A stretch of DNA of 22,741 bases from a virus, in the IMG/VR virus record IMGVR_UViG_3300047564_000153, positions 1-22,741 of that record. One strand, given 5' to 3'. The position numbers were made by a program, and so were the translations under genes. Positions 1 through 14,511 of the stretch are shown here, piece after piece. The notes under the pieces were generated by a model. It saw nothing but the letters and a program-made list of their open reading frames with translations. It made no database searches and was not told the origin of the DNA. Numbering within the stretch: the first letter of the stretch is position 1; every line of letters begins with the position of its first letter.

Positions 1-69
1 GACATCCTTAACCGAATTGGCGCTATGAGCGTTGATGAAATCAGACAACAGGAGGACTTGCTATCATGA
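1..69 (+). CDS. Portal protein, 3' end only (partial)
   Basis: The first 22 codons and stop belong to a portal gene whose 5' part lies outside the window. Bases 1-60 are identical to 15556-15615, the end of the complete portal gene in the second turn, and the reading frame is the same. The stop TGA overlaps the ATG of the protease-capsid gene (ATGA), and the AGGAGG at 50-55 inside this tail serves as that gene's ribosome binding site. It can be called only because the full copy is present downstream. Confidence 0.9.
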   Translation, partial: DILNRIGAMSVDEIRQQEDLLS

Positions 70-1628
70 AGATAACAATGCCAGTAACAATTACAGCAAG
101 CGATGCAGAATCACGCATCATTGCCGGTCGCATCGTTCAATGGGATTCAGTCGGCAATACTTCTGCTGGTCAAACTGTTTTCTTACCTAACTCAATTACT
201 TTTAACAAGAATACAAAGTTAGTCCTAGAGCATGAAATGACAAAGCCAATCGGCAAGTTAATGGAGTGGTCACAGGATGAAACTGGCATTACTGCTTCAT
301 TCAAGATCGCTAAAACAACTGCTGGCAATGACGCCCTTGAAGAGGCAGCGACTGGATTGCGTAGCGATTTTAGTGTGGGTGTGAAAGTAAATGCTTGGGA
401 CAACAAGGATGGCGTCATGGCTATCAGCGCATCACAACTAATCGAAGTTTCACTTGTAACTGAGGGAGCGATCCCAGGTGCAGAAGTGGAAAAGGTTGCA
501 GCAACCGAAACACAGGGACAAGCTGCATCCGAATCAACCATGGAGCCTCAAATTGAGGAACCTAAGACCGAAGGAGATGACCTAGTGTCAGAAACCGTTT
601 CAGAGGCAGTATCAACCGAGACGGTTGAAGCTGCAAAGTCAGAAGTAACTGCTGCGACAACACGTCCAGTATTTTACACAAATCCACGCGTGAACCTAGA
701 TGTAACAGCAGGTCAGTTCGCAATGGCACAAATCAATGCATCTCGCGGTGACGCAGATGCTCGGGATTTAGTTGCTGCTCTACAAGTTGCGACAGTTGCT
801 GAAAACACAGGTATGGTTCCACCTAACTACCTAAAGGACGTTATCGGCATCATTGATAACTCACGTCCGTTTATCGATAGCATCGAGACGGCTGCCCTTC
901 CAGTTTCTGGAATGAAAGTTTTCACTCCAAAATTGGGAACCAAGGCAACAGTTGCAGTAACAGCAGAGGGCGCAGAGTTCTCATCAACAGACACAACAGT
1001 CACATTCCAAGAGGATACAGTTGTTAAGTTTGCAGGCGCTGGCGTAATCAATGTTGAATTACTTGACCGTTCAGACCCAGGATTCTTGGATCTATATCTT
1101 CGCGAGTTGGCTGAATCCTACGCACAAAAGACAGATGCATACGCAGCACAAATCGCATCACAAAATGCAACAGCATCATCAGCAGCAACAATCTACGGCG
1201 CAATCGCTAAGGGTATTGCTGACTCATTCGGCGTACAGCGCTCAACACCAAACCGCCTACTTGTGGCTAACACAGGTGGAGAAGATGGTATCGACTTCGC
1301 AGGACTAGCAGCAGCAGTAGATACAACAGGTCGTCCACTATACGCAGCAGCAGCTCCGATGAACGCTAACGGCTTGCTTACACAGGGCTCAACAGCAGGA
1401 ACAGTCGCAGGACTTGGACTTGTTGTAGATGCTAACTACACAGGTGACGATGCAAACGCAAAGCATGCACTCGTTTACCCATCAAACGCAATGCGCTTCC
1501 ACGAAAGCAACCGCATTGAATTGCGCGCAAACATCGTAGCAAACGGTCGCATTGAGATCGGTCTATACGGATACGTCTGCGTAGTAAACCGTTACCCAGC
1601 AGCGTTCCGTAAGTTGAACGTAGCCTAA
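66..1628 (+). CDS. Prohead protease-major capsid protein fusion, allele A
   Basis: This 520-residue protein joins an HK97-type (U35-like) prohead protease to an HK97-fold major capsid protein. Residues 1-140 carry the protease signatures: LEHEM with probable catalytic His56, DFSVGV with Ser103, and LIEVSLV with Glu127. Residues about 141-200 are an acidic, Glu/Thr/Ser-rich linker that may act as the scaffolding delta domain. Residues about 201-520 are the capsid part, ending in a conserved stretch with YGYVCVVNRYPAAF. The family normally cleaves the delta region during prohead maturation; cleavage just before the capsid domain is inferred. An AGGAGG at 50-55 lies 10 bases upstream of the ATG, and the start overlaps the portal stop. 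It differs from the second allele (15621-17183) at 26 residues, none within residues 1-151. Confidence 0.92.
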   Translation: MKITMPVTITASDAESRIIAGRIVQWDSVGNTSAGQTVFLPNSITFNKNTKLVLEHEMTKPIGKLMEWSQDETGITASFKIAKTTAGNDALEEAATGLRSDFSVGVKVNAWDNKDGVMAISASQLIEVSLVTEGAIPGAEVEKVAATETQGQAASESTMEPQIEEPKTEGDDLVSETVSEAVSTETVEAAKSEVTAATTRPVFYTNPRVNLDVTAGQFAMAQINASRGDADARDLVAALQVATVAENTGMVPPNYLKDVIGIIDNSRPFIDSIETAALPVSGMKVFTPKLGTKATVAVTAEGAEFSSTDTTVTFQEDTVVKFAGAGVINVELLDRSDPGFLDLYLRELAESYAQKTDAYAAQIASQNATASSAATIYGAIAKGIADSFGVQRSTPNRLLVANTGGEDGIDFAGLAAAVDTTGRPLYAAAAPMNANGLLTQGSTAGTVAGLGLVVDANYTGDDANAKHALVYPSNAMRFHESNRIELRANIVANGRIEIGLYGYVCVVNRYPAAFRKLNVA

Positions 1629-1640
1629 TCACTTAATCAT

Positions 1641-1670
1641 GCCGGGGGGGTTGCTCCCGATCTCCCCGGC
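1641..1670 (+). promoter_or_regulatory. GC-rich stem-loop after capsid gene
   Basis: The short gap after the capsid gene contains GCCGGGG (1641-1647) and its exact complement CCCCGGC (1664-1670), with an inner GGG/CCC pair (1648-1650 with 1656-1658). No T-run follows, so it is not a classical intrinsic terminator. It may act as a partial terminator, an mRNA 3' stabiliser for the abundant capsid message, or an attenuator setting capsid-to-connector ratio. It is identical in the second copy although the gene just upstream diverges. Confidence 0.5.
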
Positions 1671-1690
1671 AGTAGTTTAGAGAGGACGAA

Positions 1691-2260
1691 ATGCCAAGTA
1701 TCATCACAGCAACACAGTTGAGAACCGTGCTTGGTGTTTCGTCTGCTCTTTACAATGATGCATATCTTGATGACATCATCGATACATCTGAGGCAGTTAT
1801 CTTGCCTTTACTTACAACTTTTGCATCACCAATCGCCAAGGTTTCGCTGACTAACAATGTCGCAACCTTTGAGACAGTAGGCATCCATGAGTTTACCGAG
1901 GGACAATCAGTTGTCATCGCTGGATGCGGATCACCATTTAACGGCACTCGAACAATCAATGATGATGTCGATGCATACACATTTACAGCAAACATCACTA
2001 ATGCCGATATCACAGAACGCAACGTCATCCCTAGCGGATCCGCAACACTTACAGGCGCTGCTACATATGTCGGCGTTGCTGCGGTCGAGTCCGCAATCAT
2101 CGTAGTTTCAGTTGAAGTATTTCAATCTCGTACTGCACCAGGAGGACAAATTGAAGGCGTGGATTTTGCTCCTAGCCCTTACCGCATGGGGCGCAGCTTG
2201 TTTAACCGCGTTGTCGGACTTCTGGGTTCGTATATTGATGTAGAAACGATGGCTCAATAA
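1691..2260 (+). CDS. Head-tail connector (gp6-like adaptor) with inserted beta domain
   Basis: The 189-residue protein begins with a helical ITATQLRTVLG segment and an acidic DDIIDTSEAV helix, typical of phage head-to-tail adaptors that bind below the portal ring. Helices resume at about residues 125-189. Between them, residues about 48-122 form a beta-rich insertion with HEFTEGQSVVIAG and PFNGT motifs that recur in phage structural proteins. Its place directly after the capsid gene supports a connector role. GAGG at 1682-1685 lies 5 bases before the ATG. The stop overlaps the next start (TAATG), indicating coupled translation. The adaptor assignment rests on position and the terminal helices; the insert's function is unknown. 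Confidence 0.7.
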   Translation: MPSIITATQLRTVLGVSSALYNDAYLDDIIDTSEAVILPLLTTFASPIAKVSLTNNVATFETVGIHEFTEGQSVVIAGCGSPFNGTRTINDDVDAYTFTANITNADITERNVIPSGSATLTGAATYVGVAAVESAIIVVSVEVFQSRTAPGGQIEGVDFAPSPYRMGRSLFNRVVGLLGSYIDVETMAQ

Positions 2261-2646
2261 TGCCATCAACAATTCTCTCGGCTGTTCGTACTCCTCTTGC
2301 CACAGCACTATCTGGAGTTTCAGCAAACGTATTTAGTTACGTTCCTGAGTCTATTCCAGCACCTGCTGTTGTTGTCGTTCCGGACTCTCCATACTTGGAG
2401 TTTGACACCATCGGCAAGAGCACCTTTCGATGCAAGATCAATATGACGATAACTTGTTGCGTTGCTTACAACAGCAATCCAGCATCGCTTGATAATATCG
2501 AGCAACTCATAACAAGTGTTGTGGCGGTTATACCTGCTGGATACGAAGTCCAGGCGGTTGATCGACCAACAGTTACGACAGTAGGCGCTGGCACTTTGCT
2601 GGTCGCAGATATACGCGTTGCCACTTGGTACACGCAGACAACATAA
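2260..2646 (+). CDS. Probable tail terminator protein
   Basis: This 128-residue protein has the usual shape of siphophage tail terminators, which cap the tail tube and join it to the head: an N-terminal helix (SAVRTPLATAL), then a strand with PAPAVVVVPDSPYLEF, then alternating beta strands. It lies between the connector and the major tail protein, the normal site for this role. There is no clear Shine-Dalgarno sequence; the ATG shares its A with the connector stop, so translation is probably coupled. The call is from size, pattern and position; I see no diagnostic motif. Confidence 0.6.
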   Translation: MPSTILSAVRTPLATALSGVSANVFSYVPESIPAPAVVVVPDSPYLEFDTIGKSTFRCKINMTITCCVAYNSNPASLDNIEQLITSVVAVIPAGYEVQAVDRPTVTTVGAGTLLVADIRVATWYTQTT

Positions 2647-2658
2647 GGAGAACCAATA

Positions 2659-3060
2659 ATGCCAACAACAGTCATTACGGGTCGCGACCTAGTACTCACA
2701 ATCGCAACGGTTAATTACGATGCGCAGACAACTAGCGTCACACTCACAAACACACCAGTCATCGATGTTTATCAGACACTCGACGGCAAGGCTTACAAGC
2801 ACACAGACGATCAATGGGCACTCAATATTGAGTTACTTGCCGACTGGGGAGCAACAGGCTCACTATTCGAAGCAATGTGGACTGCATGTGAAACAGCACC
2901 AAATACAACTCTTGCAGTTTCATTAACAGCTGCTACAGGCGCAGTATTCGCTTGTAACGTGTTGCCAGTATTCCCATCAGCTGGAGGCGCAGCACCAGGA
3001 GCACAGACTGACTCATGGGCTTTGACAGTGGTCGGAACACCAACCGAAACATTCAGCTAA
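2659..3060 (+). CDS. Major tail (tube) protein
   Basis: The 133-residue beta-rich protein precedes the frameshifted tail chaperone, the fixed position of the tail tube subunit in siphophages. Its sequence is rich in Thr, Ala and Val, with a central segment (DQWALNIELLADWG) and a C-terminal strand (SWALTVVGTPTETF) consistent with the tube fold. AAGGAG at 2645-2650 gives a strong ribosome binding site 8 bases before the ATG, as expected for a highly expressed protein. At 133 residues it is short for the family and seems to lack an extra Ig-like domain. Confidence 0.7.
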   Translation: MPTTVITGRDLVLTIATVNYDAQTTSVTLTNTPVIDVYQTLDGKAYKHTDDQWALNIELLADWGATGSLFEAMWTACETAPNTTLAVSLTAATGAVFACNVLPVFPSAGGAAPGAQTDSWALTVVGTPTETFS

Positions 3061-3082
3061 AATCTAACAAACGGGAGCAAAG

Positions 3083-3361
3083 ATGAAAAAAGAAATCACA
3101 ATTACATACGGGTCTGGGGATCAGGCGACTTACATCGCCTATCCGCCTGACTTTGCTAAATGGGAAATGGCTAACAAGAAGTCCATTGTTGAGTTCTCAG
3201 GAATGTATGATCTGCTGTTTGTTGCACATAGCGCTATGAAGCGCGAAGCTGCTGGCAAGCCAGTCAAGGCTCTTGATATCTGGATGGAATCTATTGTTGA
3301 TATTGAAGTAGGCATCGATAACCCAAAAGCCATGGACGAGGAAGTATCAGCCGACTCTTAA
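3083..3361 (+). CDS. Tail assembly chaperone, short (gpG-like) form
   Basis: The 92-residue product lies between the tail tube and tape measure genes, where siphophages encode the G/GT chaperones that coat the tape measure during tail assembly. GGGAG at 3073-3077 is 5 bases before the ATG. The protein is charged and mostly helical and ends at TAA 3359-3361. Codons 80-82 contain the slippery heptamer C CCA AAA in the correct phase, from which the -1 frame stays open to 3462. This short form is the in-frame product expected in excess. Confidence 0.8.
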   Translation: MKKEITITYGSGDQATYIAYPPDFAKWEMANKKSIVEFSGMYDLLFVAHSAMKREAAGKPVKALDIWMESIVDIEVGIDNPKAMDEEVSADS

Positions 3362-3462
3362 TTGAGTTGGCAATAGCAACTCAGATCCCAATGAGCGAGT
3401 GGACATCCGCCGAGGATATCCTAACGGCAATAGAGATTCTGGAGGAGCGCAATGGCAGATGA
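3083..3462 (+). CDS. Tail assembly chaperone, long (gpGT-like) -1 frameshift form
   Basis: A -1 shift at CCCAAAA (3322-3328) joins codons 1-82 to a second frame re-entered at 3328 and ending at TGA 3460-3462, giving 126 residues instead of 92. The added part contains LLIELAIATQIPMSEW and then TSAEDILTAIEILEER, the pattern of T-type chaperone extensions (a leucine-rich helix, PxSEW, an acidic helix). Without the shift these bases would be unused, in a phage that wastes almost none. The end overlaps the next gene's start at 3452. Frameshifting is inferred from the heptamer, its phase and the coding quality of the extension. Confidence 0.8.
3322..3328 (+). promoter_or_regulatory. -1 ribosomal frameshift slippery site CCCAAAA
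   Basis: The heptamer reads aaC CCA AAA in the zero frame, matching X XXY YYZ. After slippage CCC and AAA re-pair fully. It lies ten codons before the zero-frame stop. I did not identify a convincing downstream stem or pseudoknot by eye. Confidence 0.75.
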
Positions 3463-3913
3463 TCCAATCACCTATGATAAACAACAGTTGCGCGGAATCA
3501 TCAAGGCATTTAAGGCAATGGATGATGAAGCAGTTGAAGCTGCTAAAAAAGAATCTTCTGCACTTGCTAAATTCGCTTCTGATAAAATTAAGACGGCAGC
3601 TGCGTCTCGTACCGTTGCAGGTACGGTTGCGCGTGGTATTGCTGAGGGAGTTTCGATAAGCAAGTCAAGTAAGGTCGGTGAGTTTTCTTACGGCTTTGCT
3701 CGTCAGAAGTTTAGCGGTGGTGGTTCAACCTTGGATCTGCTTTACGGTATGGAATTCGGTTCCAATCGTTTCAAGCAGTTCCCAAATCGAACACCTAGCA
3801 AGGGTAGAGGCAATGAAGGTTATTTCATCTATCCGACTTTGCGCGCGATTCAACCTGAATTGATTAAGCAATGGGAAGAAGCATTTGATCGCATCTTGAA
3901 GGAGTGGGACTAA
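3452..3913 (+). CDS. HK97 gp10-like head-tail/tail morphogenesis protein
   Basis: The 153-residue protein starts with an Ala/Lys-rich helical half (residues about 10-65) and ends with a pattern seen in HK97-gp10-like proteins: GMEFGSNRFKQFP, then GRGNEGYFIYPTLR, then a helix with QWEEAFDRILKEW. Such proteins act at the head-tail joint. Its position is unusual, since gp10-like genes normally lie between connector and tail terminator; here it sits between the tail chaperone and tape measure. GGAGG at 3441-3445 is 6 bases before the ATG. The start overlaps the chaperone's long form and the stop overlaps the tape measure start (TAATG). It could instead be a tail-specific protein. Confidence 0.55.
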   Translation: MADDPITYDKQQLRGIIKAFKAMDDEAVEAAKKESSALAKFASDKIKTAAASRTVAGTVARGIAEGVSISKSSKVGEFSYGFARQKFSGGGSTLDLLYGMEFGSNRFKQFPNRTPSKGRGNEGYFIYPTLRAIQPELIKQWEEAFDRILKEWD

Positions 3914-5394
3914 TGGCAGGAAATAGAACGCTTAAACTTTCGATTCTTGCTGATGTCGATAACCTCAAGAAAAACCTGAGTCAGAGTACAGACGACGTTC
4001 AAGGTTTTGGAAACAAGATTGATGGATTCGCTGGTAAGGCAAAAGCTGCATTCGCTGTTGCTGGAGTAGCAGCTGCTGCTTATGCTGGAAAATTGCTAGT
4101 TGATGGTGTCAAGGCTGCCATCGAGGATGAGCAAGCACAGATACGCCTTGCCAACGCTTTAAGAAACACAGTCGGCGCAACGGATGATGCTATTGCCTCA
4201 GCTGAGGATTGGATTCTTAAGCAAGCCTTGGCAACTGGTGTTTCTGATGACGAATTAAGACCAGCCCTCGAAAGACTGACTCGATCCACAAAAGACATCG
4301 AGGAAGCACAAAAACTTACTAACCTTGCCCTGGATATTGCAGCTGCAAAAAATATCTCAGTCGAAACTGCTGCTAACGCATTAGCAAAAGCCAACGACGG
4401 GCAGACAGGCGCACTCAAGAAACTTGGCATAACTCTCGGAGACAATGCCAACAATCTTGCCGAATACAACAAAGTCCAAAAGCAACTGGCTAAGGCTCAG
4501 GATGAAGCCAATTTTGCTTTAGAAAATTACGGTCCAAAATCAAAAGAATATATCAAGGCTTCTGCAAAAGTCACAGAAGCGCAGGAGAAAGTAAACTTTG
4601 TTGCACAGTCAGGCATCGATGTTTTTGGTGAGTTAGGCAAAGAATTCGCAGGAGCAGCTGCTGAATCAGCCAACACCTTCCAAGGCAAAATGGATCGCTT
4701 GAAAATTGCATTTGATGAAACCAAAGAAACCGTCGGTGCATTTGTATTAGATGCGATCACGCCATTGCTCGGATTTGTTGTGGACAAAATTGTCCCAGCC
4801 GTTGAATCATTTATCGGTGCCATGGGCGGTAAAGAGGGACTTGGCGAGGCTTTCAAAGGTGTTTCAGATTTTGCTAAAAAGATATTTACGCCTGTCATTG
4901 AAGCAATGAAAGATGCATTTGATAAAATCAAAAAGGTTGTTATGGATAACAAAGATGAATTTGAGGCTTTGTTTAAGTTCTTGAAAACCTTTGTTGCACC
5001 ATTTTTGGGATTGGTTTTGAAGTTAGCCATTCAACAAATTGGCGACACAATTTCATTCGTGGTGGGTGCAATCGGAAAATTAATTACGGGATTTGAAAAA
5101 ATCATTTCCTTGGGAGGCAAAGTCAAAGACTTGCTTGGCAAGATTCCGGGGCTTGGTTTTCTCAATGGCAACTCAGCGCCTCAAAATACTGGCAGTTTGT
5201 TTGTACCAGGTAGCAGTCCAAACATTGCTCCTAACGGGCGCATGAATGGCGGGGCAACGGTGAACATCAATGTTTCAGGTGCAATCGATCCTATTAGTAC
5301 TGCTCGACAGATTGCTCAGATTCTTAACACAGAGGCAACGCTCAGCGGAACATTTAGCAACCTTGGCGGATCTAGATTGGTTTCTAGCGTATGA
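3913..5394 (+). CDS. Tail tape measure protein
   Basis: This 493-residue protein sets tail length and later leaves with the DNA. Features seen: a Lys/Asp-rich helical N-terminus, an Ala-rich hydrophobic segment near residues 40-60, long amphipathic helices with AKAQDEANFALENYG, a hydrophobic middle (residues about 300-400), and a Gly/Asn-rich C-terminus (GGATVNINVSGAIDP). I chose the ATG at 3913, which overlaps the previous stop and has AAGGAG at 3899-3904 eight bases upstream; a GTG at 3904 would sit inside that ribosome binding site. Using the usual scaling of about 0.15 nm per residue, the tail would be near 75 nm, which is short. The stop overlaps the hub start (ATGA). Confidence 0.9.
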   Translation: MAGNRTLKLSILADVDNLKKNLSQSTDDVQGFGNKIDGFAGKAKAAFAVAGVAAAAYAGKLLVDGVKAAIEDEQAQIRLANALRNTVGATDDAIASAEDWILKQALATGVSDDELRPALERLTRSTKDIEEAQKLTNLALDIAAAKNISVETAANALAKANDGQTGALKKLGITLGDNANNLAEYNKVQKQLAKAQDEANFALENYGPKSKEYIKASAKVTEAQEKVNFVAQSGIDVFGELGKEFAGAAAESANTFQGKMDRLKIAFDETKETVGAFVLDAITPLLGFVVDKIVPAVESFIGAMGGKEGLGEAFKGVSDFAKKIFTPVIEAMKDAFDKIKKVVMDNKDEFEALFKFLKTFVAPFLGLVLKLAIQQIGDTISFVVGAIGKLITGFEKIISLGGKVKDLLGKIPGLGFLNGNSAPQNTGSLFVPGSSPNIAPNGRMNGGATVNINVSGAIDPISTARQIAQILNTEATLSGTFSNLGGSRLVSSV

Positions 5395-6551
5395 CCTGGA
5401 GTCCCAATCCAACAGTAACCATTGATGGAGTATCGTTCACAAATAAATCATTGTGGAACGTATCTGTATCTTTTGGTCGCACAACCATTTGGGAACAGTC
5501 TCGGGCAGGTTATGCAACTATCAGCATCCTAAACGCCAACAATCAAGACTTTGGGTTTGATATGAATCATGACGTGATAATCACGGTTGATGATTCAAAC
5601 GGAGATCCAGTCACCCTATTTACTGGCAAAATCTCCAACGTGTCTAACAGCGTTCAAGCTGCTGGCACCAGCGCAACGGTTGCCATTCAGACGATCTCAG
5701 CCCTTTCAACTTTTGCTCAAATGGCTCGATCTGTTATCGGTGACACATCTTGGGCTAAAGAGTTTGACGATGCTCGAATGACTCGAATCTTTACGGATGC
5801 TGGGGTCACTATTGATACGGTGGACACTCCTCCCGTCTATGAGTTTACTGCCAGAAATGCCAGTCCAGCAGATGCGTATTCTTTAGCATCAGAATATGCA
5901 AGCATGGCATTTGGCTACATTTACGAGACCCCAACTGGGAGCGTTGGCTTTGCCAATGAGTCACGCAGATTCTTGGCAGAACGCGATAACGGCTATTTCA
6001 ATATCCCAAAAGATTACATTCTCTTTAATGGTCTGCAAAGTCAGAAAACCTTATCTGACATCATGAATTCAATTATTATCAGTTACAAAGCCAATGCTAA
6101 AAAGACGGCATCCGATGCGGTATCGATTGCCAATTACAGCCTAGTTGCAGGATCAGTTTCAACGGAGTTAGAAAAAGGCTCAGATGCCCAGGTGCAGGCT
6201 GATCGATACATCACCCTAAGAGCGTATCCTCGAACCTCCCTCTCATCATTTACCATTCAACTAGACTCACCAAATGTCGCAGATGCTGATATTGATGAGC
6301 TGCTCAACATCTCCATGGACAAAGCCATCGAAATCGATAACCTGCCTTTGGCGATCAAGAACACAACCTATCGCGGTTTCGTAGAGGGCTGGACTTTTAG
6401 TTTCAACAACATTCAGGTAAGCCTGACTTTTGACAGTTCTGACGTGGCTTACTCAGTCACTCCAACACGCTGGCAGGATGTCGATCCAGCCCTTATCTGG
6501 AATGATGTTGATCCAGCAGTAACATGGGATACTTTCGATGACATATACTAA
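5391..6551 (+). CDS. Tail hub / minor tail protein
   Basis: The 386-residue protein follows the tape measure and starts within its stop codon (ATGA). It begins with beta strands (VTIDGVSFTNKSLWNVSVSFGR), continues with a hub-like middle that includes an ASPADAYSLASEYA helix, and ends in a beta barrel-like region. This resembles gp27-type hub proteins of siphophages that close the tail tube. No separate distal tail protein of normal size is present, so this one may cover both roles. Residues about 363-386 contain repeated short Trp/Asp motifs (WQDVDPA, WNDVDPA, WDTFDD). There is no clear Shine-Dalgarno sequence, so coupling to tape measure translation is likely. The exact baseplate role is inferred from position. 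Confidence 0.7.
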   Translation: MTWSPNPTVTIDGVSFTNKSLWNVSVSFGRTTIWEQSRAGYATISILNANNQDFGFDMNHDVIITVDDSNGDPVTLFTGKISNVSNSVQAAGTSATVAIQTISALSTFAQMARSVIGDTSWAKEFDDARMTRIFTDAGVTIDTVDTPPVYEFTARNASPADAYSLASEYASMAFGYIYETPTGSVGFANESRRFLAERDNGYFNIPKDYILFNGLQSQKTLSDIMNSIIISYKANAKKTASDAVSIANYSLVAGSVSTELEKGSDAQVQADRYITLRAYPRTSLSSFTIQLDSPNVADADIDELLNISMDKAIEIDNLPLAIKNTTYRGFVEGWTFSFNNIQVSLTFDSSDVAYSVTPTRWQDVDPALIWNDVDPAVTWDTFDDIY

Positions 6552-6562
6552 GGAGCAAAGAA

Positions 6563-6730
6563 ATGGCTAATACGCCGAATTACAACTGGACTACGCCTGA
6601 CAACACAGGATATGTAAAAAACGGCGCGCTAGACATGAGAACGCTGGGAAACGCAATCGATTCAACGACTTACTCACTGCAACTTTCAATCGAAAGTTTC
6701 ATTCACCCTTTCCTATTGATGGGAGCATAA
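6563..6730 (+). CDS. Tail fibre N-terminal-type small protein (55 aa)
   Basis: The short gene encodes MANTPNYNWTTPDNTGYVKN and, shortly after, MRTLGNAIDSTT. This is the attachment motif that begins many actinophage minor tail and fibre proteins (PNYxWxxPxxxxxVxxGAxxxRTLGNAIDxT). In those phages it is followed by a long fibre; here the gene stops after 55 residues. AAGGAG at 6550-6555 lies 7 bases before the ATG, so it is well translated. It probably binds the tail tip and recruits the next small proteins (6734-7566) in place of a single long fibre. The motif is recognised from family knowledge; its partners are inferred. Confidence 0.75.
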   Translation: MANTPNYNWTTPDNTGYVKNGALDMRTLGNAIDSTTYSLQLSIESFIHPFLLMGA

Positions 6731-6733
6731 AGC

Positions 6734-7066
6734 ATGGCAACAGCATATAAAATCTTGGGGCAAGCTGCTCCAGCAGCTACGACAGCGACAGACCTTTACA
6801 CAGTCCCAGCTTCCACTAGCACAATCATTTCGTCTTTGACAGTATCTAACCGATCAACAACATCAGCGGCAACCTTTAGACTTTCGACAAGTGCAGCCGG
6901 TGCTGCAACTGCGGACAAAGATTATATTGCCTATGACATCACCATCGCTCCTAGTGGCATTGTTATCTTGACGGTTGGCTTAACTTTGGCTACAACTGAC
7001 AAGGTTCGCGTTTATGCTTCAACTGCTAATCTTTCATTCAATGCTTATGGAACGGAGATTTCATAA
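6734..7066 (+). CDS. Putative tail fibre/receptor-binding component (110 aa)
   Basis: The 110-residue beta-sandwich-type protein starts with MATAYKILGQ, then LYTVPASTSTIISSLTVSNR, and ends with FNAYGTEIS. Small proteins and domains of this pattern are widespread in phages of aquatic bacteria, next to tail fibre genes or decorating virions. GGGAG at 6721-6725 lies 8 bases before the ATG. The stop shares its bases with the next start (TAATG). No enzymatic motif is visible. Its role at the tail tip is inferred from its neighbours; a capsid decoration role is the main alternative. Confidence 0.6.
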   Translation: MATAYKILGQAAPAATTATDLYTVPASTSTIISSLTVSNRSTTSAATFRLSTSAAGAATADKDYIAYDITIAPSGIVILTVGLTLATTDKVRVYASTANLSFNAYGTEIS

Positions 7067-7566
7067 TGGGATTTACAGCGATTCCAGGTGGAGACATCTG
7101 GCTACAAATTGGCACTACACAGACTCCTACTAGCGGATCATCCGTTTCATTTACAAGCATCCCACCAGTAAAGAAGCTGCGTATCCTAGTTAACAGCGTT
7201 ACCCAAACAGCATCTAGTCGTCTGGTTTTAGTGTTAAACAATGACACAGGCGCAAAATACACTTACGCATGGAACGGTGTCGTGGCACAAATTACGGCAT
7301 CATCATCAAATCTTGGCGAAATCCGTTTAGGTCGCGCAGGAGGCACAAACATCATCTGCGACATCGAGTTCGATTACGCTAACCAAGCCTGTCCAAAATT
7401 GATTCAGGGCATGGCAGATAACAAGGCTGCTAACGGTGACACCATGAACCAAATCTGGGGAAACTATAACTCAACCGATTCAATCAATCGCATTGATGTT
7501 GTCAGTTCCACATCTACTTTTGCAGCTGCAAACACAGGTACTATTGCAATCTATGGAGCCTTCTAA
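7066..7566 (+). CDS. Putative tail fibre / receptor-binding protein (166 aa)
   Basis: The 166-residue protein looks like a single beta jelly-roll: alternating hydrophobic strands throughout (KKLRILVNSV, SRLVLVLNND, EIRLGRAGG, TIAIYGAF) and Gly/Ser/Asn loops, with no helix-rich part. Jelly-roll domains like this form the tips of phage fibres or carbohydrate-binding modules. It lies last in the tail block, just before a small conserved protein and the lysis genes, the usual place for receptor-binding proteins. GGAG at 7054-7057 precedes the ATG by 8 bases, and both ends overlap neighbours by TAATG junctions. Receptor binding is inferred. Confidence 0.5.
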   Translation: MGFTAIPGGDIWLQIGTTQTPTSGSSVSFTSIPPVKKLRILVNSVTQTASSRLVLVLNNDTGAKYTYAWNGVVAQITASSSNLGEIRLGRAGGTNIICDIEFDYANQACPKLIQGMADNKAANGDTMNQIWGNYNSTDSINRIDVVSSTSTFAAANTGTIAIYGAF

Positions 7567-7700
7567 TGCCTAAGACAACTAGACCAGAAACAACAGAAGT
7601 TAATTGCGAGACAGGCGAAGTGATTGTCCGTCCAATGACAGATGAGGAATACGCCTCTTACTTGGTAGTACAAAGTCAAGATGAAGCCGAGACTGAGTAA
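7566..7700 (+). CDS. Small conserved-type protein after fibre gene (44 aa)
   Basis: The 44-residue acidic product has NCETGEVIVRPMTDEEYASY in its middle. Short proteins with a TGE...RpmTdeE pattern are often found right after phage fibre genes and may help fibre assembly, but I cannot name a family with certainty. It starts on the fibre stop (TAATG), with GGAG at 7555-7558 seven bases upstream, and its last 20 bases overlap the lysin gene. Tight packing on both sides argues that it is real despite its size. Confidence 0.6.
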   Translation: MPKTTRPETTEVNCETGEVIVRPMTDEEYASYLVVQSQDEAETE

Positions 7701-8103
7701 GTCCGTAATCCAACTCAGAGAGCAGGCAGACGATTCTTATCCAGATCGAAAGCGTGATTCTGACGGGACAATCGGAGACTTGCGGCATCAAGCCAAAAAG
7801 AGCGATCACAACCCTGACCCTCATACAGGGTATGTCCGCGCTCTCGATCTCGATGTTGATTTCAACCGACAAGCCAATACAGCTGCTTACATTGCCGACC
7901 AGATTCGAATTGCAGCCAAGTCAGATAAGCGCATTGCATATGTCATATTTAACCGCAAGATTGCAAGCGCTAGAAGCCTTTGGCGCTGGCACAAGTACAG
8001 AGGAATCAATCCGCATACCAGCCACATCCACATCAGTTTTACGAAGGCTGGCGATGAAGATCAAAAGTTTTTTAACATCCCATTACTAGGAGGCAGTAAA
8101 TGA
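7681..8103 (+). CDS. Endolysin, M15-like zinc D,D-peptidase
   Basis: This 140-residue enzyme probably cuts peptidoglycan cross-bridges at lysis. It has the zinc-site pattern of M15/VanY-like peptidases in phages: IGDLRH (His36), SDHNPDPHTG (His43), ALDLDVD (Asp56), then PHTSHIHISF (His112, His115, His117). There is no cell-wall-binding domain, signal peptide or membrane segment, so it needs the holins just downstream. It is a single compact catalytic domain. The ATG lies inside the preceding gene with only a weak ribosome binding site; the conserved N-terminal pattern (LSKSVIQLREQAD...SDGTIGD) supports this start. Its stop overlaps the first holin's start (ATGA). Confidence 0.85.
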   Translation: MKPRLSKSVIQLREQADDSYPDRKRDSDGTIGDLRHQAKKSDHNPDPHTGYVRALDLDVDFNRQANTAAYIADQIRIAAKSDKRIAYVIFNRKIASARSLWRWHKYRGINPHTSHIHISFTKAGDEDQKFFNIPLLGGSK

Positions 8104-8309
8104 AGGAAGTCATCAAGCGCTTTAAGTCACCAAAGTTTAAGGCTGCTTTTAAGGATTACCTGGTAGGAGTTGGCGCATCTGCAATCGCAGCTGCTCTGGC
8201 TTTGGCAATGGACTTTGCACCAGAGTACGCAATCTTGATTGCTGGTATTACTGCACCAGTTGCAGCGTGGGCAGATAAGAATCGCAAAGAGTATGGCAGA
8301 ACGGAGTGA
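8100..8309 (+). CDS. Holin (two-TM type)
   Basis: The 69-residue protein has a Lys-rich N-terminus, a hydrophobic stretch (VGVGASAIAAALALAM), a short acidic turn (DFAPEYA) and a second hydrophobic stretch (ILIAGITAPVAAWA), then a charged tail. That is the usual plan of small phage holins that open the membrane for the endolysin. AGGAGG at 8088-8093 lies 6 bases before the ATG. It overlaps the lysin stop at one end and the next small membrane protein at the other. Function is inferred from topology and location beside the lysin. Confidence 0.75.
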   Translation: MKEVIKRFKSPKFKAAFKDYLVGVGASAIAAALALAMDFAPEYAILIAGITAPVAAWADKNRKEYGRTE

Positions 8310-8497
8310 CCGCCAATGATTGGGCAGGGCTCATCCTTGCCATTGCATCGACGCTTGCTATTTTTGTTGGCGGTTTGCGTTATCTGGTTCGCGGTTGGTT
8401 GTGGACTCTTACGCCGAATGGTGGATCATCTCTCGCAGACCGATTGGCAAGAATAGAGACACGCCAAGAACAGATGATGGAATTACTTAAGAAGTAA
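8306..8497 (+). CDS. Small membrane protein, second holin-like or antiholin candidate
   Basis: The 63-residue product starts at GTG 8306, overlapping the holin stop (GTGA). It has one clear membrane segment (WAGLILAIASTLAIFVGGLRYLV), then a cytoplasmic-type helical tail (SLADRLARIETRQEQMMELLKK) likely to form a coiled coil. Actinophage lysis cassettes often carry two small membrane proteins, one a holin and the other a partner or regulator. There is only a weak Shine-Dalgarno sequence, so it is probably translated by coupling and at a lower level. The division of roles between the two proteins cannot be read from sequence. Confidence 0.65.
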   Translation: MTANDWAGLILAIASTLAIFVGGLRYLVRGWLWTLTPNGGSSLADRLARIETRQEQMMELLKK

Positions 8498-8512
8498 GGG
8501 ACACTTATCCAC

Positions 8513-8737
8513 ATGGCAAGAAAAGCAACTAAAGCACTAGAGGATCAGGGTTACTCAAAACTCGATGCTTATTGCATTGGGTTACATGAGTATTACCAAT
8601 CATTGCGTAAGGCTGGCTTTAACGAGGATCGCGCTCTTTACCTTTTATCGGTCGTAGATTCTTATCCTGGGTGGATTTTGCCAGATCCAATCGAGCCAGA
8701 GCGTTATGGCGATTACGAAGATGAGGATGACGATTAA
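8513..8737 (+). CDS. Small acidic protein of unknown function (74 aa)
   Basis: I do not recognise this gene. The 74-residue product has a helical N-terminal half (SKLDAYCIGLHEYYQSLRKA, then EDRALYLLSVVD) and ends in a strongly acidic tail (YGDYEDEDDD). It opens the accessory region after the lysis cassette. AAGGGA-like bases lie about 12 bases before the ATG, a rather long spacing. Its 3' end overlaps the start of the metallophosphoesterase in another frame. Small acidic phage proteins of this kind sometimes bind host proteins, but nothing here shows that. Confidence 0.6.
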   Translation: MARKATKALEDQGYSKLDAYCIGLHEYYQSLRKAGFNEDRALYLLSVVDSYPGWILPDPIEPERYGDYEDEDDD

Positions 8738-9479
8738 GCGAATAGTCGTAGTCTCGGACTTACAAGTCCCATACCATGACAGGGTTGCCACTCGTAACCT
8801 TGCTAGTTTCATTCAGAAGTTTAAGCCAGATCAAGTCGTAACTATTGGCGATGAGATTGACCTTCCCCAGATAAGTAAATGGGAGGAAGGGCGCATGGGC
8901 AGTTATGCTCAAACGCTCGATGATGATCGTAACGAGGCGGTTCAGCTGCTATGGGAATTAGGCGTTACTGACTGCATAAGGTCAAATCACACAGACCGCC
9001 TATACAACATCATCATGGCTAAAGTGCCTGCCTTTGGCGCTTTACCTGAATTGCGCTTTGAGAAGTTTATGAAGTTTGATGAATTGGGCATTACCTTTCA
9101 CAAGAACCCCATGCCGATTGCGCCTGGCTGGATTGCAGTCCATGGCGATCACACACCGATAAAGCCACTAGGGGGCTTATCAGCCCTTGAAGCAGCCCGT
9201 AGGCATGGCAAGAACGTCATCTCAGGGCATACTCACAGAGCAGGGCGTTCAGCCTTCTCAGAGGCTTCTGGAGGGCGTATCGGGCGTGTTCTGCATGGTG
9301 TTGAAGTAGGCAACCTGATGGACTTCAAACAAGCTGCATACACTAAAGGCGTGGCTAACTGGCAACAGGCGTTCGCCATCATCTATGTAAACAAGGCAAA
9401 AGTCCAGGTGGACATAATTAACATTGAGAAGGACGGCACGTTTATCGTTGCTGGAAAGTCATACGGCAGAGCCCGATAA
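8706..9479 (+). CDS. Calcineurin-like metallophosphoesterase
   Basis: The 257-residue enzyme has the full set of calcineurin-like metal motifs in order: VVVSDLQVPYHD (Asp18, His24), TIGDEID (Asp49), SNHTDR (Asn94, His95), VHGDH (His146) and SGHTHRAG (His175, His177). The family hydrolyses phosphoesters with a two-metal centre; in phages the substrate is mostly unknown, with nucleotides or nucleic-acid ends as candidates. The start is uncertain: ATG codons at 8706, 8721 and 8727 are all in frame and none has a strong ribosome binding site; 8727 would give MTIKRIVVVSD and a shorter overlap with the previous gene. The stop overlaps the following 30-codon frame. Confidence 0.88.
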   Translation: MAITKMRMTIKRIVVVSDLQVPYHDRVATRNLASFIQKFKPDQVVTIGDEIDLPQISKWEEGRMGSYAQTLDDDRNEAVQLLWELGVTDCIRSNHTDRLYNIIMAKVPAFGALPELRFEKFMKFDELGITFHKNPMPIAPGWIAVHGDHTPIKPLGGLSALEAARRHGKNVISGHTHRAGRSAFSEASGGRIGRVLHGVEVGNLMDFKQAAYTKGVANWQQAFAIIYVNKAKVQVDIINIEKDGTFIVAGKSYGRAR

Positions 9480-9571
9480 TGGATGATCTGCACATAGACA
9501 TCAGACACACGCTTGATGATGCAGTTGATTTAGGAGAATCGTTATCGTTTCGTTACCAAATAAACGTGTAA
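9479..9571 (+). CDS. Possible tiny ORF (30 aa), unknown
   Basis: An ATG on the phosphoesterase stop (TAATG) opens a 30-codon frame encoding MDDLHIDIRHTLDDAVDLGE and a short tail ending RYQINV. The overlap style matches true genes nearby and the product is a regular charged helix, but it is very short and has no clear ribosome binding site. It could be a real microprotein or chance. Confidence 0.35.
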   Translation: MDDLHIDIRHTLDDAVDLGESLSFRYQINV

Positions 9572-9600
9572 TTGTCTGCTAGATGTGAGACCGTAATCCA

Positions 9601-9618
9601 GTAGCCAACCCAGGCTAC
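9601..9618 (+). repeat. Short inverted repeat in intergenic gap
   Basis: GTAGCC (9601-9606) and GGCTAC (9613-9618) form a perfect 6-bp stem with a 6-base loop. A competing CCGTA/TACGG pairing (starting near 9591, ending at 9620) overlaps it. It lies in the 65-bp gap 9572-9636, one of very few gaps in the genome. There is no T-run after it and I see no convincing promoter around it. Confidence 0.4.
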
Positions 9619-9636
9619 GGAATCGGGAGTAAGTAC

Positions 9637-9786
9637 ATGAGTTTTGAAATGCCAATGATCGTGTTATTACTAGCAGCTAATGCCCTTTGGTATTTAGTGG
9701 GCTGGGCAAAAGGCTTTAACGAAGGCAAACGAGAAGGATTGATCGTTGCCAAGTCCTATCAGCGTGTGAGTGAAAATGCGCGCTGA
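9637..9786 (+). CDS. Small single-pass membrane protein (49 aa)
   Basis: The 49-residue product has an N-terminal hydrophobic segment (MIVLLLAANALWYLVGW) followed by a Gly/Lys/Arg-rich tail (AKGFNEGKREGLIVAKSYQR). Small membrane proteins of this pattern are common in actinophage accessory regions, but their role is not known to me. GGAG at about 9626-9629 lies about 7 bases before the ATG. Its 3' end overlaps the next gene by 11 bases. Confidence 0.65.
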   Translation: MSFEMPMIVLLLAANALWYLVGWAKGFNEGKREGLIVAKSYQRVSENAR

Positions 9787-10060
9787 TGACATCCTTGACG
9801 AAGCAAAAGACCTTATCCAAGACCGAGGTAAAGATTACGGCTTGGCAGCTCTCAATCACCTTCGAATTGCCAAACTCTGGTCAGCCTACCTTGAACGCAA
9901 CATCGAGCCTCACGAAGTCGCAATCTGTATGGCACTTGTCAAAATCTCACGCTTACAAGAGACAAGCCTCCACGCAGACAGTTACAAGGACGGCTGCGCA
10001 TACATTGCGCTCGCTGGACAAATTGCATCAACTGATTGGAGTGACCTTGACAGTTATTAA
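9776..10060 (+). CDS. DUF6378-like protein
   Basis: The 94-residue helical protein has the pattern of a small phage family I know as DUF6378: ADDILDEAKDLI, DRGKDYG, NHLRIAKLWSAYL, EVAICMALVKISRL and DSYKDGCAYIALAGQIA. It is common in actinophages next to DNA metabolism genes; no activity is established. The conserved Asp/Glu and Lys/Arg residues on helices faintly recall MazG-type nucleotide hydrolases, which is only a guess. I prefer ATG 9776, which has GTGAG at 9766-9770 five bases upstream; a GTG at 9770 would add two residues. It overlaps the preceding membrane protein and the following zinc protein. Confidence 0.75.
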   Translation: MRADDILDEAKDLIQDRGKDYGLAALNHLRIAKLWSAYLERNIEPHEVAICMALVKISRLQETSLHADSYKDGCAYIALAGQIASTDWSDLDSY

Positions 10061-10298
10061 GTCTGCTCCTGGAGTCTGGTGCGATTACTGCAAAACCAGA
10101 TATGGAACAAATTCCATACTTGGGCAAAAGGCAGCTAGTTACACAGTTATCAGCAATCACCCAAAGAGCCAAGGTGTTAGACGGCATTACTGCAATGCAT
10201 GCGCCATCGATGTCCAGTCGTGGGCAGATGGTACGGTCTGGTCATTACCAGAACAAACCGATTACCTAATGAAACAAGAGGAGTTACCAAGTGTTTAA
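10041..10298 (+). CDS. Small zinc-ribbon-type protein (85 aa)
   Basis: The 85-residue product contains two cysteine pairs, GVWCDYCKTRYG and RRHYCNACAID, about 37 residues apart, a likely structural zinc site. Function is unknown; small zinc ribbons in phages often bind nucleic acid or RNA polymerase. The most plausible start is GTG 10041, overlapping the previous gene by 20 bases; a TTG at 10047 is an alternative. The frame stays open upstream to 9786, but that part overlaps the DUF6378-like gene and reads as a shadow. Its end overlaps the next gene's GTG by 8 bases. Confidence 0.65.
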   Translation: MTLTVIKSAPGVWCDYCKTRYGTNSILGQKAASYTVISNHPKSQGVRRHYCNACAIDVQSWADGTVWSLPEQTDYLMKQEELPSV

Positions 10299-10968
10299 CC
10301 TAGCAGATTATGAAACGGTGGAATCAAGGCTGGAAAAGTTTATTAAGGACTTTCCGGACTTTAGAATATCGACAGAATTGGAGAGTTACCAGAATGATAG
10401 ATTCATTGTTAAAGCGTACTTATATCGAACTTACGCTGATGGTGTCGCGTTCACGACAGGATACGCTGAGGAGAAAGTTACTGATCGAGGCGTTAATTCA
10501 ACTTCAGCGCTGGAGAATTGCGAGACTTCAGCAATCGGTCGAGCGCTTGCGAACGCGGGTTATGCTGCTAAAGGAAAGCGTCCATCTAGAGAAGAAATGA
10601 GCAAGGTCGAACGACTAAGCGCCAAGGACATTGCCAAGGCTAAGGAAGTACCAAGTTTCAAAACAAAAGAGGAAGCACTAGCTGCGGATCCTTGGAGTAA
10701 AGAGCCTATCTATGGCGATGTTACTCAGCCTCCAGCAGTAACAGCAGCTGAGGCTATTGCCAATGTTCAGGACATTCTGGGAGGAACTAACTCAGAAGGT
10801 TGTGTCCATGGTGACATGGTTTGGAAAGAGGGCGAAAAGGCTGGACGTGCTTGGGGTGGATTCTTCTGCGGTTATGCACCAAGGACAGGCGAAGCCAAGT
10901 GTTCAACAGTCTGGTACAACCTTGGATCAAATGGCAAGTGGGAGCGACAGAAATTAAGGAGCGTGTGA
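10291..10968 (+). CDS. Putative single-strand annealing / DNA-binding recombination protein
   Basis: The 225-residue protein has an N-terminal domain (1-110) with the motif SALENCETSAIGRALANAGY (residues 72-91) followed by KRPSREEM, a signature shared by a large actinophage family that I associate, without proof, with Rad52/Erf-like annealing proteins. The middle is a disordered linker. The C-terminus (171-210) has spaced zinc-type ligands, Cys171, His173, Cys193 and Cys204, among aromatic residues (WGGFFCGY, STVWYN), resembling a small nucleic-acid-binding module. GAGGAG at 10278-10283 lies 7 bases before the GTG start. The nearby resolvase-like nuclease fits a recombination role. The Rad52/Erf link is the least certain part of this call. 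Confidence 0.45.
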   Translation: MFNLADYETVESRLEKFIKDFPDFRISTELESYQNDRFIVKAYLYRTYADGVAFTTGYAEEKVTDRGVNSTSALENCETSAIGRALANAGYAAKGKRPSREEMSKVERLSAKDIAKAKEVPSFKTKEEALAADPWSKEPIYGDVTQPPAVTAAEAIANVQDILGGTNSEGCVHGDMVWKEGEKAGRAWGGFFCGYAPRTGEAKCSTVWYNLGSNGKWERQKLRSV

Positions 10969-11144
10969 TGGGCTTTGTTGAAGTAAACATCAATGGTCAA
11001 TGGATGAACCTGATGCACTTGACTTTAAGATGTCAGTTGTGCAATGAGGAAATCATATTGGCTCATGTGGCAAAGATTGAGAACGCAGATGCTCCAGTCA
11101 ATGCAACGTGGACATGTAAGAAGTGTCATTCAATCAATGGCTAA
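10968..11144 (+). CDS. Small zinc-ribbon protein (58 aa)
   Basis: The 58-residue product has CxxC pairs in LRCQLCNEE and WTCKKCHS, 27 residues apart, the normal spacing of a treble-clef or zinc-ribbon knuckle. Its ATG overlaps the previous stop (TGATG) and has AAGGAG at 10956-10961 six bases upstream, so it is certainly in the translated set. The last 8 bases overlap the nuclease gene. No family is recognised; a role with the neighbouring DNA proteins is possible. Confidence 0.7.
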   Translation: MGFVEVNINGQWMNLMHLTLRCQLCNEEIILAHVAKIENADAPVNATWTCKKCHSING

Positions 11145-11562
11145 TCATCGAAAACATCGAGGATATCGGACTCAAAAGGTTGTAGCCGATTACCTTAAAC
11201 AATGGTGGCAATATGCAGATACGGCTGGTGCTGGTCGTCAGGGTGAGGACATTCTCAATATTCCGACTATCAGCATCGAAGTTAAAGCCAGAGCAGACTT
11301 TCAGCCTTTAGCCTGGATCAAACAAGCTGAAACAAATGCTAACGGCAAGATGCCAATGGTAATCATGCGATGTAACGGTCAAGGCGAGGATGTGGGCGAA
11401 TACCTGGCATTTGTTAAAGTCAAGGACATTATGCCGATATTGCATTTAGTTGCACCAACAGATATACCAGCCCATTGTGACAAATGTGGGGCTTGGACAT
11501 TTATGGAAAGGAAGTGCCTATCATGCCAACTTACGAATACAAATGCGTTAAATGCCAAATAA
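11137..11562 (+). CDS. PD-(D/E)XK nuclease, Holliday-junction-resolvase-like, with zinc tail
   Basis: The 141-residue protein starts with MANHRKHRGYRTQKVVADYL and then TAGAGRQGEDIL, with ISIEVKAR at residues 45-52. Asp38, Glu48 and Lys50 match the PD-(D/E)XK nuclease core found in phage resolvases and VRR-type nucleases. After a strand-rich middle, the C-terminus carries HCDKCGAW and KCLSCQ (Cys114, 117, 127, 130), a zinc knuckle. Resolvases of this kind trim branched replication intermediates before packaging. I start at 11137, inside the previous gene; the longer frame back to 11044 overlaps that gene and shows no conservation. The zinc tail overlaps the next gene at 11523. Confidence 0.7.
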   Translation: MANHRKHRGYRTQKVVADYLKQWWQYADTAGAGRQGEDILNIPTISIEVKARADFQPLAWIKQAETNANGKMPMVIMRCNGQGEDVGEYLAFVKVKDIMPILHLVAPTDIPAHCDKCGAWTFMERKCLSCQLTNTNALNAK

Positions 11563-11684
11563 GCATGGAGTTAGAAAAGTCAATACATGAGGAGGCAGAT
11601 CCAATTTGTTGCGGTGAATCAATGCGTAGGGTTTATGGATCATTCGGCATATCCTTCAAAGGTAATGGATGGGGTCATCAATGA
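11523..11684 (+). CDS. FmdB-type zinc-ribbon protein (53 aa)
   Basis: The 53-residue protein begins MPTYEYKCVKCQISMELEKS and ends in GISFKGNGW, the two hallmarks of the FmdB/CxxC-CxxC-SSSS regulatory zinc-ribbon family. The second cysteine pair is the adjacent CC in PICCGES instead of CxxC, a small deviation from the family pattern. FmdB-like proteins are found in bacteria and phages; proposed roles are transcriptional, unproven. GGAAAGGAAG at 11505-11514 lies 8 bases before the ATG. It overlaps the nuclease gene by 40 bases in another frame and the methyltransferase start (ATGA). Confidence 0.82.
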   Translation: MPTYEYKCVKCQISMELEKSIHEEADPICCGESMRRVYGSFGISFKGNGWGHQ

Positions 11685-12157
11685 AACTGGTACTAGATCC
11701 AGCATCAAGCATGAGATCGTTTTACTTTAACAAGACTGACGATCGAGTGCTGTTTGGTGACATCCGAGAGGATGAAACCCATTTATTAACCAATGGTCAG
11801 ATAATCCATATCAAACCAGATCAAGTCATGGATTTCAGAGCCATACCATACGCAGATGACACATTTCAGGCAGTTATCTTTGATCCGCCACATTTACTAA
11901 ATCTGAGTGAAAAATCTTGGATGCGTAAGAAGTATGGCGTATTAGACAAAGAGACCTGGCGTGATGATTTAACTAAAGGCTTTGCAGAGTGCTTTCGAGT
12001 GTTAAAGCCAAATGGGACTTTGATATTCAAATGGAACGAAACATCAATCATGCTTAAAGACATACTGGCACTTACTGATCAAAAGCCATTAATTGGGCAT
12101 CCATCAGGGAAGCGTATGGGTACTCATTGGGTAATGTTTATGAAAGGTAACGCATGA
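11681..12157 (+). CDS. SAM-dependent DNA-methyltransferase-like protein
   Basis: The 158-residue protein belongs to a compact class I methyltransferase family common in phages. Seen in order: LDPASSMRSFYFNK (motif I-like SAM loop, residues 5-18), GDIRE, DFRAIPYADDTFQAVIFDPP then HLL (motif IV, DPPH at 68-71), WRDDLTKGFAECFRVLKPNG (93-112), IFKWNET and HPSGKRMGTHWVMFMK. DPPH in place of DPPY still fits an amino-methylating active site on DNA. It lacks a separate target recognition domain, so specificity is unknown. A likely role is protection of phage DNA from restriction. Start and stop both overlap neighbours by ATGA, which supports ATG 11681 over the in-frame codons upstream. Confidence 0.82.
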   Translation: MKLVLDPASSMRSFYFNKTDDRVLFGDIREDETHLLTNGQIIHIKPDQVMDFRAIPYADDTFQAVIFDPPHLLNLSEKSWMRKKYGVLDKETWRDDLTKGFAECFRVLKPNGTLIFKWNETSIMLKDILALTDQKPLIGHPSGKRMGTHWVMFMKGNA

Positions 12158-12603
12158 AACGACACGCCCAGACACGCCCAAGATCCACGCTGTTGATTGC
12201 GTTGTTTGGTACGCTAACGGCGCAGAGCCCATCAAGGGCTCACCGCGACCCGCTGAGGCGGGTAGGTCGCGGGGTGCTAGTAGCTATTGGGATATCTCTG
12301 TTTACACCGGCTTATGCCGATGCACCTGTAGAGGCTAAAAGATTAACGATTAAAGAATATGCAGCTATATTGGTAGATGATGATAAGCAGATGAAATGCT
12401 TAGGTAAGTTATATGGCAAAGAGTCAGCATGGAATCCAGATGCTGTTAATGGCTCTCATTATGGAATACCACAAGGACGATCTATATATCTAAAGACTGC
12501 ATTACCAGAGCAACAGATTATGTGGGGCTTGAAGTACATCGATAACAGATATGGTTCACCATGTAAAGCATGGGACTTCTTTCAAAGGAATAACTATCAC
12601 TAA
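12154..12603 (+). CDS. Lytic-transglycosylase-like exported cell-wall enzyme
   Basis: The 149-residue protein ends in a compact lysozyme-like domain: KCLGKLYGKESAWNPDAVNG with Glu90 as probable catalytic acid, then HYGIPQG, QQIMWGLKYIDNRYGSPCKA and a final aromatic NNYH. Cys82 and Cys137 could form a disulfide. Before it lie two hydrophobic segments: TLLIALFGTLTA (12-22) and VLVAIGISLFTPAYADA (41-57), the second with a signal-peptidase-like end. This suggests an exported or membrane-tethered enzyme. GAAAGG at 12142-12147 supports ATG 12154. An in-frame GTG at 12274 would start just at the second hydrophobic segment and remove an odd Arg-rich N-terminus encoded by a hairpin-rich DNA stretch. 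It is far from the main lysis cassette, so a role in entry or early wall remodelling is possible. Confidence 0.68.
   Translation: MKRHAQTRPRSTLLIALFGTLTAQSPSRAHRDPLRRVGRGVLVAIGISLFTPAYADAPVEAKRLTIKEYAAILVDDDKQMKCLGKLYGKESAWNPDAVNGSHYGIPQGRSIYLKTALPEQQIMWGLKYIDNRYGSPCKAWDFFQRNNYH
12161..12180 (+). repeat. 10-bp tandem direct repeat
   Basis: GACACGCCCA occurs twice in immediate tandem (12161-12170 and 12171-12180), just inside the 5' end of the transglycosylase-like gene. It lies 44 bases before the two GC-rich hairpins. It may be part of a protein-binding or replication/packaging site, or a simple slippage duplication. Confidence 0.7.
12225..12272 (+). other. Two back-to-back GC-rich hairpins within coding sequence
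   Basis: Hairpin 1 is GAGCCC-ATCAA-GGGCTC (12225-12241), a perfect 6-bp stem. Hairpin 2 (12243-12272) has CCGCG (12243-12247) and ACCCGC (12248-12253), loop TGAG, then GCGGGT (12258-12263), a 4-base bulge and CGCGG (12268-12272). Both stems are far more GC-rich than the surrounding DNA and encode a low-complexity Arg-rich peptide. Such structure inside a gene suggests selection on DNA or RNA rather than on protein. Confidence 0.7.
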
Positions 12604-12719
12604 TGAATACTGATGAGACTATGATTAAGTGCAGTAGGTGTGAGACAGATACACCTGAGTCAGAGCTGCTATCTGTCCATGCATGGTGGGTATGTGGTAT
12701 TTGTTATGATGAATTGTAA
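12603..12719 (+). CDS. Tiny zinc-knuckle protein (38 aa)
   Basis: The 38-residue product has CxxC pairs in IKCSRCETD and WVCGICYDE, a minimal two-knuckle zinc site. It starts on the preceding stop (TAATG) and its own stop overlaps the HNH start (TAATG), so it sits in a coupled chain. It is too short for WhiB and lacks its four-cysteine spacing. Function is unknown; its place beside the HNH and terminase genes may link it to packaging. Confidence 0.65.
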   Translation: MNTDETMIKCSRCETDTPESELLSVHAWWVCGICYDEL

Positions 12720-13027: not shown

Positions 13028-13029
13028 CT

Positions 13030-14508: not shown

Positions 14509-14511
14509 TTA

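Follow-up and report, generated by a model that had tools for sequence, protein, structure and literature searches.

A probable case of two population capsid alleles recorded on one small siphophage genome, within a phage group that exchanges its capsid gene

Proposed model

We propose that the window, by which we mean the whole 22,741-bp stretch of DNA analysed here (a complete IMG/VR record), contains one phage genome that the assembly ran through more than once, recording two capsid alleles of a population, one of which, B, was gained by recombination at conserved borders; we give this reading a probability of about 0.72. In this model the walk would have run past its own start, the genome being circular or concatemeric in the assembly, a point on which we infer the behaviour of the assembler. 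The sampled population would hold two capsid alleles, with the walk taking A at the outset and B once it came round again. As judged from the trees, A would be the allele of the backbone's own lineage and B would come from the other of two circulating capsid classes, its most likely route of arrival being homologous recombination in a co-infected cell. The crossovers would lie where the DNA is conserved, between the portal and capsid genes and between the capsid and adaptor genes, as the border conservation and the exchanges among relatives suggest. Recognition of the capsid protein by host defences may be offered, as a conjecture, as a candidate for what maintains capsid diversity. The features on which the model rests are collected in Table 1.

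Table 1. Coordinates of the features discussed, in window positions.
Feature	Position	Strand	Basis
One genome unit, first pass with allele A	1-15555	.	Offset 15,555; relatives 15.1-16.0 kb
Walk continued into a second round of this genome, carrying allele B	15556-22741	.	Overlap of 7,186 bp, its 171 differences confined to the region of the capsid gene
Protease-capsid fusion gene, allele A (class a)	66-1628	+	Pfam PF04586, phrog_2263, tree
Protease-capsid fusion gene, allele B (class b)	15621-17183	+	Pfam PF04586, phrog_2263, HK97-fold model, tree
Terminase large subunit gene	13030-14508	+	Pfam PF03354, phrog_9
Portal protein gene	14524-15624	+	Pfam PF04860
Head-tail adaptor gene, downstream flank of the cassette	1691-2260	+	Gene order as in isolates; weak phrog_5938 match
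Box 1, portal-end conserved DNA including the capsid Shine-Dalgarno	19-59 (second copy 15574-15614)	+	41-mer, third-position identity
Box 2, conserved stretch within the ORF (codons 169-191)	570-638 (second copy 16125-16193)	+	Third-position identity
Box 3, intergenic hairpin with a CTCCC-type loop, following the capsid stop	1640-1671	+	Pairing in 93% of cells; covariation of 0.826, against 0.223 on shuffling
Box 3 hairpin, second copy	17195-17226	+	Identical sequence
Shine-Dalgarno region CGGGAGCAA, complementary to hairpin loop TTGCTCCCG	3072-3080 (second copy 18627-18635)	+	Loop complement
Gene targeted by the loop, probably a tail assembly chaperone	3083-3361 (second copy 18638-18916)	+	Location behind the probable major tail protein gene; chaperones of isolates matched weakly by profile

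Geometry of the record

Comparison of the window with itself at an offset of 15,555 yields a 7,186-bp overlap with 171 substitutions and 0 indels, the first mismatch lying at 61 and the last at 1577 and the region 1578-7186 being mismatch-free, which reproduces exactly the counts of the initial annotation (about 171 differences without indels, 61-1577, 5,609 clean bases). Its confinement of the divergence to the protease-capsid gene holds as well, as 170 of the 171 mismatches fall inside that ORF. On either side of the difference the flanks of A and B are identical for 60 bp upstream, where the comparison is limited to this length because the window is the whole record, and for 5,609 bp downstream. 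The description of this DNA as otherwise identical is therefore correct over these two lengths but carries less weight than it might, as one assembly-graph path may have been used twice, which would make the identity of the downstream copy automatic and no proof of two identical backbones. IMG/VR relatives that look complete measure 15.1-16.0 kb and mostly hold one capsid gene (10 of 12 long relative records checked), so that the 15,555-bp spacing corresponds to one genome and the record is a single small siphophage genome of ~15.56 kb walked 1.46 times. We know of no assembler setting whose k-mer signature fits a contig start 60 bp ahead of the first difference.

The gene order of the window is terminase, portal, fusion, adaptor, terminator, major tail protein, chaperone and tape measure, in which the adaptor, major tail protein and chaperone are assigned by position, with weak profile support or none. 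After the tape measure gene, a gene at 5391-6551 is found in a minority of relatives (56 loci) and is missing in most of the phages with a closely related capsid; mosaicism extends to the tail region as well.

The protease-capsid gene and its two alleles

The capsid ORF encodes a prohead protease (Pfam PF04586, aa 11-145; S78-type) fused to a major capsid protein (phrog_2263), and a model of the fusion protein, of moderate confidence (pLDDT 72, pTM 0.54), matches HK97, Bxb1 and other actinophage capsids when compared with the PDB by Foldseek. Alleles A and B differ at 29, 13 and 128 first, second and third codon positions respectively (128 of 170 in the third), with dN of 0.033, dS of 0.45, dN/dS of about 0.07, 26 amino-acid replacements, 97 transitions and 73 transversions. 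These differences are what natural divergence under purifying selection leaves behind, and are not sequencing error. They are unevenly shared between the two halves of the protein, the protease half (aa 1-150) having 39 synonymous and 0 replacement codons and the capsid half (205-520) 73 and 24 (p=1.4e-4). Replacements are densest at aa 411-447, a borderline excess (p=0.055) that lies partly in a low-confidence part of the structure model.

The closest relatives of allele A are L017/L023 (94%) and those of allele B are L003/L004 (91%), and at the 26 differing amino-acid sites relatives divide into two near-complete haplotype classes, a and b. In the capsid tree class a is a single clade (100/100), while allele B sits among class b; A and B are both natural alleles. 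The portal tree requires 6 changes between classes a and b; well-supported branches force at least 4 of these, and the total is hardly below the 7.3 obtained with shuffled labels. As the portal of the window is sister to L017/L023 in the portal tree, and allele A is sister to the same L017/L023 in the capsid tree, A would be the home allele of the backbone lineage and B the likely incomer. The initial annotation had proposed looking for each allele beside different flanks, and at the level of allele classes this is what is seen, with a and b spread across the portal tree; the exact sequence of A or of B turned up in no other contig, in searches from which the near-neighbour records of the window were possibly left out.

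Alternative explanations

Among other explanations, the one with most to say for itself is that A and B come from two strains with different backbones, that the assembler crossed between them in the conserved borders and that the shared backbone is artefactual. Over-length IMG/VR records of this group, namely G001 (L381/L382), G002 (L379/L380), G003 (L384) and G006 (L383), join or overlap two diverged strains at 67-90% identity, and strain chimeras thus do occur in it. The joins take several forms (inverted at 80% in G001, tandem at 67% in G002, ends of 89.6% over 785 bp in G006), but these records diverge across their overlaps, whereas the backbone after B is identical for 5,609 bp. Near-identity of the border stretches between strains would have made a crossing easy, yet two wrong joins are required, one at each edge of one gene. 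Only 60 bp are present upstream of A, although these match the backbone at sites that vary among relatives. Among the relatives no other genome pair was found whose flanks are almost the same and whose capsids are 11% diverged, which weighs against the favoured model. Natural exchange of exactly the capsid gene is frequent in the group, which weighs against a chimera. On balance we hold a strain chimera to be rather unlikely.

Two intact capsid ORFs in one record would also result from a single phage genome of >22 kb with two capsid genes, through tandem duplication or a dimeric prophage, a reading that we find very hard to sustain. The repeat includes nine further genes without one difference, and no integrated copy was found among the 84,980 genome-species contigs scanned, where the host scan returned relatives that were all weak, three of these lying in MAG contigs. 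Unit length and relatives together lead us to reject this candidate, and the preference of the initial annotation for two variants in one population over two genes in one genome is upheld, given that the repeat unit is as long as the genomes of relatives and that the lineage of each allele occurs in other contigs with different flanks. Targeted hypermutation of the capsid gene by a diversity-generating element, for which one could cite the confinement of the differences to one gene, is scarcely credible: the third-position excess, the low dN/dS and the mixture of transitions and transversions, which shows no single-base bias, do not resemble it, and both alleles have closer relatives elsewhere. 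We have rejected it on the third-position bias and these closer relatives. Passage of the assembly more than once over one genome with two population alleles is the reading that we favour.

Exchange of the capsid gene among relatives

Exchange of capsid alleles is well supported for the phage group, but the sharp edges at the gene are by themselves no proof of the recent exchange that the initial annotation claimed for A and B, since both edges lie in DNA common to many relatives, where any join of A and B, real or artefactual, would look sharp and a cross-strain assembly join would give the same edges. Exchange is supported better by the relatives than by this contig. In a set of 133 distinct genomes, for which pairwise identities of the terminase, portal, protease domain, adaptor and capsid domain were taken, the first four are intercorrelated (r 0.75-0.91) whereas the capsid domain correlates with them only at r 0.17-0.26. 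This includes the protease domain of the same protein (r 0.26), which itself follows the portal at r 0.89. Accordingly, 377 genome pairs have portals at least 90% identical with capsid domains below 45%, and 557 pairs have portals below 70% with capsid domains at least 85% identical. One portal clade of 73 genomes contains three capsid-domain types (23, 35 and 15 genomes), the switch between types starting at aa 195-205 and extending to the gene end. These three types require 4 changes on the portal tree as against 6 for classes a and b, so type swaps are the rarer of the two. In L006/L147 a window-like capsid gene lies between flanks only about 65% similar, similarity jumping at the gene edges, and the trees of the exchanged unit and of the flanks are incongruent. 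Comparisons of this kind give good support to a model in which the capsid gene would behave as a general exchange cassette, with whole-gene swaps within and between lineages together with swaps of the capsid domain alone, the latter close to a conserved block within the ORF (box 2 below).

Conserved blocks at the cassette borders

Three blocks, boxes 1 to 3, mark the borders of the exchanged units, and their conservation at the DNA level includes wobble positions. Box 1 is a 41-mer found exactly in 48 contigs, and a MAFFT alignment of the 5' border gives a third-position identity of about 1.00 over the last portal codons in the group with portals at least 90% identical; the box takes another version in a more distant portal group. 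Box 2 is 69 nt long, lies just ahead of the protease/capsid domain junction and keeps a third-position identity of 0.95-0.97 in 72 genomes; it also folds as a hairpin (z -3.1). The conserved block of box 3 consists of the capsid-adaptor intergenic hairpin and the leader after it. From this conservation we infer that the boxes would be natural sites for homologous crossovers; alternatively, the borders could be conserved for a regulatory function, with exchange as a by-product. An Rfam search of 14001-22741 returned three sub-threshold hits, none of them at the borders. In one relative, the hairpin at L106:3874-3905 combines arms of two distinct haplotypes on either side of the conserved loop, possibly through a crossover inside the loop. 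This is the single hybrid hairpin seen, and the other crossover positions are read from the points at which similarity shifts.

A hairpin loop that matches a remote Shine-Dalgarno

The box 3 hairpin has 13 pairs, with 93% of cells paired and a covariation of 0.826 that falls to 0.223 when shuffled and to at most 0.22 when slid, and its loop is a nearly invariant GCUCCC. We consider it probable that this hairpin acts as a long-range cis-acting RNA element, in which the CUCCC-type loop would pair across three genes with the Shine-Dalgarno of the chaperone gene and so tune the head/tail protein ratio, the partners covarying and the capsid cassette being swapped beside it. The gene that follows the probable major tail protein, 1.4 kb downstream of the hairpin, has as its Shine-Dalgarno the exact complement of the loop, CGGGAGC(AA), and the duplex of loop and Shine-Dalgarno in the window has a predicted energy of -17.2 kcal/mol. 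Fold prediction gives no structure at the target site at 3072, on which account pairing of a loop with a linear partner is assumed. Hairpins were found by direct hairpin enumeration. A recognised hairpin and sufficient sequence downstream were available in 186 genomes, and in 169 of these a start site lying 1.3-1.85 kb from the hairpin carries a perfect loop complement of 7 nt or more; elsewhere in these contigs, gene starts reach a 7-nt complement in 1.5% of cases. Five loop classes (GCTCCCG, TCTCCCG, ACTCCCG, GCTCCTG and GCTCTCG) each match their own ribosome binding site (RBS) only, the matrix of loop class against RBS having a diagonal of 7.1-10 nt and off-diagonal values of 3-6. The paired cells, the double changes and the covariation score of loop and RBS lie above all 500 shuffles, and the counts of covarying pairs and of pair types are not outstanding against the same 500. 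It is the count of 169 of 186 together with the class matrix that carries the argument for pairing, because the class and shuffle tests are conditioned on a match of at least 7 nt.

The targets of the loop form one length class, with 166 predicted products of which nearly all have 88-97 aa, and representative products align as one family; the gene is probably a tail assembly chaperone, to judge from its position and a weak profile match. A short frame ending in MSEWTSAEDILTAIEILEERNGR, at about 3330-3460 of the window, overlaps the end of this probable chaperone gene and suggests a G/GT-type frameshift pair. By analogy with the icaR 3'-UTR, the simplest function of the hairpin would be a damped translation of the chaperone relative to the capsid and tail tube proteins. 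In a sister group with GCCCT-type loops the match to the RBS is mostly absent; some of these genomes (loci L334, L335, L341, L342, L356 and L364) have an 8-9-nt complement about 20 nt inside the chaperone gene, and others have none.

Significance and relation to known systems

Major capsid genes serve as phage lineage markers. Here the capsid domain varies almost independently of the remaining genome, and even of the protease domain to which it is fused, so that trees built from capsid sequences are misleading for these phages. The group offers a natural and testable case for the old question of module swapping by homology at conserved borders, and a covarying match of loop to Shine-Dalgarno would constitute a conserved RNA switch inside the late genes of tailed phages. 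The record also serves as a warning that a virome contig of excess length may hold a pair of alleles or a chimera of strains. While the exchange of phage modules is itself known, the domain-level capsid cassette with its conserved boxes sets this case apart, as does the proposed RNA element at the cassette border; no earlier description was found in a literature search of partial coverage.

Capsid protein triggers some bacterial defences, as described for CapRel (PMC9712102) and Thoeris (PMC12578639), and allele swapping could therefore be a counter-strategy. Arthrobacter cluster AN phages have genomes of about 15.5 kb and the same protease-capsid fusion (PMC5513430), and they resemble the phage of the window, as do Microbacterium phage BonaeVitae (Orlajensenviridae) and Curtobacterium phage Penoan, in their 15-17 kb genomes, fused protease-capsid gene and gene order. 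The 15,555-bp unit likewise fits the range of about 14-18 kb of small siphophages with this fusion. The capsid protein of the window shares only 24-27% amino-acid identity with those of the Arthrobacter, Microbacterium and Curtobacterium isolates, which places the window outside named clusters and genera, and the complement of hairpin and RBS is not seen in the isolates MooKitty and Atraxa at the corresponding gene, after the major tail protein, although both have hairpins. Phage mosaicism with conserved boundary sequences has been discussed (PMC3029335), and here too modules would be swapped at short conserved DNA at gene borders; unlike in that case, the unit is the major capsid gene or the capsid domain alone, one block lies inside an ORF, and the pattern extends over >130 uncultured genomes. 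Finally, in the icaR mRNA of Staphylococcus aureus the 3'-UTR pairs with its own Shine-Dalgarno (PMC3868564), and the phage hairpin is alike in presenting a C-rich motif after a stop codon that is complementary to a distant Shine-Dalgarno of the same transcript. It differs from icaR in that the loop lies between late genes and matches a different gene, 1.4 kb downstream, with natural covariation in support of the predicted pairing.
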